Source: an uncultured Candidatus Pelagibacter sp.
GTDB taxonomy: Bacteria; Pseudomonadota; Alphaproteobacteria; Pelagibacterales; Pelagibacteraceae
NCBI GenBank assembly: GCA_905612465.1
Contig: CAJQSC010000018.1
Coordinates: forward strand, 1 to 47,406
Direction: 5' to 3'
Length of the DNA stretch: 47,406 nt
A program made the position numbers and the translations under genes. Each line of letters opens with the position of its first letter. Position 1 is the first letter of the stretch. The notes below the pieces were generated by a model. It worked only from the letters and a program-made list of their open reading frames with translations. It was not told the DNA's origin and made no database searches. Below, one piece after another: positions 35,677 to 39,434 of this stretch.

Positions 35677-35761
35677 GGGCGAATGGCGGAACTGGTAGAC
35701 GCGCACGACTCAAAATCGTGTTTCGCAAGAAGTGAGAGTTCGATTCTCTCTTCGCCCACCA
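35677..35761 (+). tRNA. tRNA-Leu (anticodon CAA)
   Basis: GGGCGAA acceptor pairs TTCGCCC; GGTAGACGCG D-arm; CACGA-CTCAAAA-TCGTG anticodon arm (CAA); long variable arm; GTTCGATTC T-loop; encoded CCA. Confidence 0.95.
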
Positions 35762-37590: not shown

Positions 37591-37619
37591 TTGACATCAC
37601 TTGTATAAAAAAATAAAAA
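37591..37619 (+). promoter_or_regulatory. Putative promoter TTGACA-17-TAAAAA for the 29-aa basic ORF
   Basis: Perfect -35 hexamer at 37591-37596, weak -10 at 37614-37619. Confidence 0.45.
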
Positions 37620-37620
37620 T

Positions 37621-37655
37621 AAGTTAACAACGAATCACTTTGATTCGTTTAACTT
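37621..37655. repeat. Inverted repeat AAGTTAA(CA)ACGAATC-ACTTT-GATTCGTTTAACTT with two GANTC sites
   Basis: AACGAATC/GATTCGTT perfect 8-bp arms, extended by AAGTTAA/TTAACTT with a 2-nt bulge; 16 nt upstream of the small ORF. Confidence 0.75.
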
Positions 37656-37671
37656 AAACAGGGAGCTAAAG

Positions 37672-37761
37672 ATGGCTACAAAGAAAAAAGCTAAAAAAGC
37701 TAAGAAAAAAACTAAGAAAAAAGCTAAAAAAGCTAAAAAAGCTAAAAAAAGAAAAAGATAG
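37672..37761 (+). CDS. 29-aa Lys/Ala-rich, histone-H1-tail-like mini-protein (not in ORF track)
   Basis: Hand translation: MATKKKAKKAKKKTKKKAKKAKKAKKRKR*. SD-like AGGGAG at 37660-37665, upstream promoter-like sequence, terminator downstream. 18 Lys and 2 Arg of 29, no acidic residues. Confidence 0.7.
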   Translation: MATKKKAKKAKKKTKKKAKKAKKAKKRKR

Positions 37762-37776
37762 TATCTTAGTCTTTTC

Positions 37777-37820
37777 AAAAAACGCTTCTCATATTATTTT
37801 TGTGAGAGGCGTTTTTTTTT
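37777..37820 (+). terminator. Intrinsic terminator downstream of the 29-aa ORF (possibly bidirectional with carD)
   Basis: AAAAACGCTTCTCA...TGAGAGGCGTTTTTTTTT hairpin followed by a T run; A-rich 5' flank could serve the convergent carD. Confidence 0.85.
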
Positions 37821-37829
37821 ACCTAATTT

Positions 37830-38735
37830 TTAATCTTCAGTTTCAGGAGTAGTAGACTCAGCTTCAGACGCCACTGGCTCTATAGGTTTAGCAGGGGCAG
37901 CAATAATCTTTGCTTGCACCTCTAGGTTTCTCTTTAATGCCTTATCTAGTTTTTTCTGCGTATCTTCTAATGACACACCCATTACTATCTGGAATTCTGA
38001 TAATATTCTTTCATAAGCTTTCTCAAAAAGTTGTCTTTCACTGTAAGACTGATCAACCATTAGATCATCACCTTTGTTCAAATCTCTAACAACCTCAGCA
38101 AGTTCATAAATCTTTCCAGAAGAAATCTTAGCCTCATATTCTTGTGCTCTTCTACTCCACATTGACCTTTTGATTTTTGGCTTACTTTTTAAAATAGAAA
38201 TACATTTATTAACCTGATTAATAGTTGCCAACGGTCTAAGGTGAGACTGTTTGTTTACTGGAACCATTCCGTTAGCTTTATCTTTTTCAAACTTAAGCAT
38301 ATATATTTCAACATCAATACCACCAATATTAATTTTTTTGAATTCAGTAATTTGTCCAACACCATGCTTTGGATAAACGACATAATCTTTAACTTTATAT
38401 TCTTTCTTTTCTGTTTCTTGTTTTTTTACTTTTTTAATTTCAGGTTTAACTTCATTACTTTTTGGAATTCTTAGATTATCAGTTTTCACCTCTACTTTTT
38501 GAGGGATAGGTTTTATATTAGTTACTTTTGAATTTTTTTTGACTTTTACTGAAGCTTTCTTTGTTACTTTAGTTTTTTTAACAGGAATAATTTTTTTAGA
38601 TGTTTTAGTCTTACCTTTAAATTTATTTATCACTTTAGTAATAGTTTTCTTTTTTACTTTTTTTTCAGGGGTTTTTTTAAAGATTTTCGCTAAAATATTT
38701 GTCGAACTTGTTTTCTTCATTTTTATACTTTTCAT
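37830..38735 (-). CDS. carD: CarD/CdnL family transcriptional regulator with Lys-rich N-terminal extension
   Basis: [48 protein letters not shown]...LRPLA...[28 protein letters not shown]; preceded by about 110 residues rich in Lys/Thr/Val. Confidence 0.93.
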
Positions 38736-39003
38736 GATCCTCTGGAGGATCTTTTTTTACAGTTATATTTGGCCAAACTTCTGAATATTTAGTATTCACT
38801 TCAAGCCATTTTTCACTTCCAGACTCAGTATCTGCAACTATAGCATCAACTGGGCATTCTGGCTCGCAAACGCCACAATCTATACACTCATCCGGTTTAA
38901 TTACAACCATATTTTTGCCTTCATAAAAACAATCAACTGGACAAACTTCAATACAGTCCATCATTTTACACTTGATACATTTATCATTTACTAGGTAGGT
39001 CAT
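38677..39003 (-). CDS. fdxA: 7Fe ferredoxin (FdxA)
   Basis: [55 protein letters not shown]. Confidence 0.96.
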
Positions 39004-39434
39004 TTTTTTAATTTTTGTTTTATTTTTTCTTTTAAGTCACCCATGGTTTTTTCATCTATATATAATAAACCAGCAAGTCTCCTCATCAAGTTTGTCTCAT
39101 ACATATCTGCGTTATTATCTGAATAAATAATCTTCCACAGAGACTCAATAATTCTAATTTTATCCGATTCAGGTGCATTTTTAACCTCTTTTGTGAAATT
39201 TAGTATTTGGTTTGAATTTTCTTCAATAATTAAAGCATCCGAAATTAATTTATCTATATTAGAGCTTGTAGCGCCCAATTCAATTAAAGTTTTTTTAATA
39301 ATTTCTTTTTCCTTATCTTCATAATTTTCATCAATTTTCGCCACGTGAATTAACAAAGCGGCAATATTAGAATAAGATTTATCATCATTGACGATATCTT
39401 TTTCATTCTCTTTGTTTTTAAAAAAATTGATCAT
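39000..39434 (-). CDS. TerB-like (tellurite resistance/DnaJ-like) family protein
   Basis: [28 protein letters not shown]...[35 protein letters not shown]. Confidence 0.78.

Follow-up and report, generated by a model that had tools for sequence, protein, structure and literature searches.

The proteins eL41 and bTHX have 20-30 aa and are strongly basic. Bacterial proteins of the H1-like class (Hc1/Hc2/AlgP) are of low complexity, rich in Lys and Ala, sometimes with Pro, and nearly free of acidic residues. In chlamydial Hc2, length is reported to vary via the number of lysine-rich pentamers (PMC2848022), and AlgP is a histone H1-like protein of Pseudomonas (PMC9239181). For SAR11 itself, a 2019 GC-IGR survey of strain HIMB5 reported at least three sORFs of no assigned function (PMC6429828).

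Here we describe a mini-gene in a window of 47,406 nucleotides, the whole stretch of DNA analyzed, from an uncultured Candidatus Pelagibacter sp. We lean towards the view that it specifies a conserved, separately transcribed polycation, similar to protamines or H1 tails, which would bind nucleic acid and have the nucleoid as its probable main target. By composition the mini-protein appears akin to H1-type tails (Hc1/Hc2, AlgP) or protamines, which is a likeness and not a homology. Like the tails of chlamydial Hc1/Hc2 (HctA/HctB), the mini-protein and its orthologs are Lys/Ala-rich with repeat-based length variation, but Hc2 has 165-237 aa against 20-50 aa here, and Hc1/Hc2 have a developmental role whereas the mini-protein is known from its sequence alone. 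AlgP, with its Lys/Ala/Pro-rich H1-like composition, comes closest to the orthologs in the second family of the order (f2 below); it is much longer than the mini-protein, which carries no other domain, and homology was not detected. With protamines the mini-protein shares its size, extreme positive charge, lack of acidic residues and Arg-rich end, but it is dominated by Lys rather than Arg and is bacterial, and common ancestry is not claimed. Its low-complexity Lys/Ala(/Pro) composition is that of the H1-like class, but no curated family model matched it: neither the 29-aa protein nor its longer orthologs, of up to 91 aa, gave a significant match in Pfam or NCBIfam. This absence is weak evidence because composition-biased peptides escape such searches, and even profiles made from the present family failed to recover genomes that have the gene, the source genome included.

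The HIMB5 sORFs are described as intergenic, conserved, SAR11-only short ORFs like the present one, and the mini-gene may be among them, so that a prior listing is possible (PMC6429828). The genes carD, fdxA and fadD are not named in the GC-ranked Pelagibacter IGR list of Meyer 2009 (PMC2704228), and no motif in that list was recognized as the mini-gene unit; nor is the unit mentioned in the accessible part of the Red Sea differential RNA-seq paper.

Organization of the mini-gene

The sequence-only reading had described a complete small cistron with an acyl-CoA synthetase gene on one side and carD on the other, and each of its named parts was found. All lie on the + strand. The -35 element, TTGACA, is at 37591..37596, and the motif TTGAC occurs in 122/122 usable records at a nearly fixed spacing from the downstream motif CGAATC. 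The probable -10 region, TAAAAAT (37614..37620), is weak as either TAAAAA or AAAAAT; the latter follows an 18-nt spacer, the best hexamer pair scores 10/12, and the region falls within an A-rich tract conserved in the genus. Next come a predicted 5'-terminal RNA hairpin, ACGAATCA-CTT-TGATTCGT, at about 37630..37648, whose 5' arm includes the invariant CGAATC (37631-37636), and the SD sequence AGGGAG (37660-37665). The ribosome-binding region AGGGAGCTAAAG (37660..37671) is nearly invariant in the genus, being present in 102 of the 103 genus records with upstream sequence and replaced in the remaining one by AGGGAGTTAAAG. The coding sequence runs from the ATG at 37672 to a TAG ending at 37761 and specifies the 29-aa protein MATKKKAKKAKKKTKKKAKKAKKAKKRKR, in which, as first noted, 20 residues are K/R and none is D/E. 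An intrinsic terminator, the hairpin ACGCTTCTCAT...GTGAGAGGCGT followed by a T run, occupies 37783..37820 (end approximate); a simple terminator scan listed no site here, yet the hairpin and T run are plain in the sequence. The transcript region folds better than its shuffled versions (z -5.8, with 0/200 shuffles as good). The source genome, which is half-complete, has one copy of the mini-gene, and Rfam gave nothing above noise at the unit.

The constant convergent neighbor is carD (37830..38735, - strand), encoding a CarD/CdnL-type RNA polymerase-binding factor (Pfam PF21095, PF02559). Named relatives of the window CarD all belong to Candidatus Pelagibacter, Pelagibacteraceae or Pelagibacterales, and by these relatives the window is assigned to Pelagibacter (SAR11). 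Pelagibacter CarD has a Lys-rich N-terminal extension of ~100 residues ahead of its RNA polymerase-interaction domain (Pfam match from residue 112). The carD-fdxA gene cluster also includes a TerB-domain protein (39000-39434, - strand) flanked by fdxA and a Suv3-type helicase. The sole tRNA gene in the window, tRNA-Leu(caa) at 35677-35761 (+ strand), immediately precedes the acyl-CoA synthetase gene.

Occurrence in the Pelagibacterales

The whole unit, convergent to carD, recurs in every genus locus with sufficient flanking sequence, that is, in 104 Pelagibacter locus records (some genomes present twice) with 65 distinct CDSs. These ORFs are 21-35 aa long, begin with M[AP], lie 3' of carD and share start, frame, K/R/A composition and an Arg/Lys-rich end. 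Beyond the 104, two loci (L132 and L133) have diverged start regions and one (L080) a one-base homopolymer loss. The automatic scan found no ORF in six loci, of which five retain just 146-206 bases past the matched carD end. At the sixth, L080 (a P. ubique contig, about 840-940), the entire unit is present with one A lost from an A-run, which turns the final Arg run into EEED; this is probably an assembly error. Other length changes are in frame, so that neither the loss of frame, start and basic composition in relatives nor the frequent frame-breaking indels named beforehand as grounds for abandoning the gene were encountered.

An exact-pattern search for the start region matched 70/148 genomes drawn from the order, all of them in the Pelagibacter genus. 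Six genus members were unmatched: L132 and L133, one genome that ends near carD, and three without a carD match. In five other Pelagibacteraceae genera, the mini-gene was found in 11 loci with products of 21-50 aa (MAKRRKKAKKKTKKKKAKKRRKRR, MAKKRKKAAKKKAPAKK...), and in f2 it was found in 9/10 loci with products of 40-91 aa (MEELKVIFAKARKKAKKKAAPKKK... with AAPKKK repeats); the tenth f2 locus runs off its contig. The f2 mini-genes still adjoin carD, and no fadD homolog was detected at those loci. The f2 orthologs strengthen the likeness to a histone H1/Hc1-type tail that had been drawn from the 29-aa sequence. Recurrence of the unit in the genus and, in diverged form, across the order goes well beyond chance.

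No convergent basic mini-ORF was present at 50 carD loci (30 + 20) from other alphaproteobacterial genomes. One locus of another alphaproteobacterial family (L167) has a K/A-rich ORF adjoining its CarD match. An IMG/VR pattern scan and a phage blastn search gave no match to the unit. Class-wide DNA-pattern and protein-profile searches were uninformative, as they missed genomes known to hold the mini-gene. Within SAR11, the mini-gene appears to be present in each genome of the order that could be checked, and we regard it as a putative single-copy core gene of the Pelagibacterales that is easily overlooked. The cells that carry it are among the most streamlined known of those that live freely, and the gene, at or below the usual length limits of gene calling, also escapes profile searches.

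Coding selection

Substitutions in orthologs have the pattern of a protein gene. Over 152 close pairs, pN/pS was 0.18, and substitutions at codon positions 1/2/3 numbered 49/163/362, counts of non-independent events in that the pairs share ancestry; the position-2 changes were mostly K-R. The only codon changes seen in these pairs were K-K, K-R, A-A, A-K, A-P, T-T, A-T, S-T and R-R. Random mutation is expected to give ~21% acidic or hydrophobic changes and 6% stops, but no acidic or hydrophobic change was seen. The 59 distinct Pelagibacteraceae proteins have 0 acidic residues and 60-86% K/R, figures to be read with the high K/R share that the ORF finder demanded, which biases composition among accepted ORFs; failing loci were inspected separately. 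The f2 proteins have two acidic residues each, located N-terminally. Length varies by whole codons. We judge it almost certain that the gene is real and under selection, and from these comparisons selection on this protein gene acts on charge and composition. The observation in the sequence-only reading is thus confirmed, on stronger grounds than its reader could know, and its interpretation as a whole is supported.

These data also bear on whether the main product of the unit is a small regulatory RNA, the ORF being incidental. Such an RNA would fit the hairpins at either end and the near-invariance of AGGGAGCTAAAG in the genus. However, purifying selection acts on codons and frame: third-position substitutions dominate, no frame-breaking indel was found except the one homopolymer loss, and the SD and start are conserved, with the protein composition kept order-wide though the RNA sequence diverges. 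We therefore hold a regulatory RNA to be very improbable.

The 5' hairpin and the terminator

The motif [AG]CGAATC lies 38-42 nt after TTGAC in 122/122 usable records, and at 40 nt in 96; the records were chosen as having CGAATC upstream, and those dropped for missing CGAATC or TTGAC are all cut at a contig end. From this spacing, transcription would be expected to start about 3-5 nt before CGAATC. The strong dyad described in the first reading of the sequence proved to consist of a conserved core hairpin and of outer arms, AAGTTAA/TTAACTT in the window, that relatives do not keep. Most Pelagibacter have GATTCG opposite CGAATC, and others have GATTTG, which pairs through a G-U wobble. The 3' arm of several genera is an unrelated sequence (TTTAAGTGA, ATGTGAT) that still pairs, in shifted register. 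The outer hairpin pair alternates between A-U and G-U, 36 to 12 among 48 distinct hairpins, with variable loop length. Genomes have a single copy of the dyad, except for one genome with two.

An RNA hairpin where the mRNA is expected to begin is the best reading of the dyad, rather than an ordinary operator, because spacing varies, wobble pairs occur and other genomic copies are practically lacking. A repressor operator, as a DNA dyad, is rejected: loop length varies, the A/G exchange breaks DNA symmetry and keeps A-U/G-U pairing, and the dyad is essentially unique in the genome. Hairpins at the 5' end shield mRNAs such as E. coli ompA from 5'-end-dependent decay. The stem leaves out part or all of CGAATC in L137, L138, L139, L141 and L142, and the motif is invariant there too. 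In these five loci, from two genera (L140, the other locus of the series, is the exception), CUCC in the leader pairs with GGAG in the SD and hides it almost entirely (SD unpaired 0.01-0.04), unlike the Pelagibacter leaders that were folded, where the SD ranges from partly to mostly open (0.29-0.81). The f2 leaders (L112-L120) contain a conserved segment of the type AACCTCTAAC[TG]AAAC.C...GGGGAG that is able to pair around the SD, which suggests translational control.

At the other end of the unit, the terminator retains its hairpin and T run: within the genus the stem changes by G-U/A-U exchange, and other genera have different stems. The terminator may also serve the convergent carD, as it is flanked by A and T runs and is thus suited to the opposite strand too. 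Runs of Lys/Arg codons followed by a terminator recall a leader peptide or attenuator that senses lysine or arginine. This reading is contradicted by orientation, in that no gene follows on the same strand and, at the loci examined, the next gene is the convergent carD; we give it practically no weight.

Probable role of the mini-protein

Because length is variable and only composition is constrained, function is readable from composition alone. Under the polycation reading, transcription from the TTGACA promoter would start just ahead of AACGAAUC and yield a short mRNA with a stable hairpin at its 5' end and the terminator hairpin at its 3' end, which is expected to be long-lived; expression may be high, as the sequence-only reading proposed. 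The strong SD would direct translation into a polycation of Lys, Arg and Ala, of about 20-50 aa (40-91 aa in f2), predicted to be unstructured. Such a polycation could neutralize phosphate backbones with no sequence specificity, as H1 tails or protamines do, and would most likely aid compaction or organization of the nucleoid in very small cells. That the mini-protein binds nucleic acid we regard as quite probable; that the nucleoid is its main partner is about an even call, and an RNA, ribosome or polyphosphate partner suits the sequence about equally well.

A ribosome- or RNA-binding protein, similar to eL41 or bTHX or acting as an RNA chaperone, is an alternative to a nucleoid protein. The mini-protein is short and strongly basic like eL41 (25 aa) and bTHX, ribosomal protein genes typically have a structured 5' leader, and pairing of CUCC with the SD, as in some genera (L137-L142), is what autoregulated leaders do. 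However, eL41 and bTHX have a fixed length and site, whereas members of the present family range from 20 to 91 aa and grow in a repeat-like way, which ill suits such a site; the f2 AAPKKK repeats resemble H1 tails, and a phmmer search of PDB chains, though insensitive for such a sequence, gave no match with E of 10 or less. We consider this alternative rather unlikely.

A cationic peptide that is secreted or antimicrobial was also considered. Among contributors to the predicted antimicrobial peptides of AMPSphere, Pelagibacter ranks third (PMC10491242), and with so large a contribution peptides like the mini-protein may be included there. Nevertheless, the mini-protein has no signal sequence and almost no hydrophobic residues, and its gene is a single-copy core gene with no adjoining exporter gene, which makes such a role highly improbable.

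If the polycation is a nucleoid protein, it would be among the smallest known, and packing of the SAR11 chromosome could be put to a direct test. Whatever its role, a core and perhaps abundant protein may be escaping ocean surveys of genomes, proteomes and metatranscriptomes.

A GANTC site near the predicted transcription start

The GAATC within CGAATC (37632-37636, + strand) is a GANTC (CcrM) site and faces a second one, GATTC (37642-37646), within the 5' hairpin. By the spacing-based estimate of the start, GAATC lies 3-5 nt past it in all usable records. In Caulobacter, a GcrA target is defined by having GANTC between -40 and +40 relative to the transcription start site (PMC7987155). Among 11 complete or near-complete genomes, GcrA was found in 10 and a CcrM-type N6 methylase, assigned by family only and with a presumed target sequence, in 11.

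Expression of the mini-gene might thus be coupled to replication through a CcrM site read by GcrA, a layer that would be added to the polycation reading. Conservation of CGAATC in 122/122 records, even outside the stem in L137-L142 except L140, is consistent with this. On the other hand, the flanking C and A are conserved as well, beyond what GANTC requires, and other genera have lost the second GANTC. Moreover, TTGAC-N33-37-CGAATCA occurs at no second site in 9/10 matching genomes, and as it is nearly unique to the mini-gene locus there is no regulon of this exact form. We treat cell-cycle control of the mini-gene as a serious possibility, yet a rather unlikely one. The combined proposal, that a free polycation of protamine size is a core chromosome-compacting protein of SAR11 whose synthesis is tied to replication via a CcrM/GcrA site at the start of transcription, is decidedly speculative; if true, it would be a bacterial counterpart of S-phase histone expression, in cells among the ocean's most abundant. 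In the window, GANTC was counted 82 times against 93 expected.
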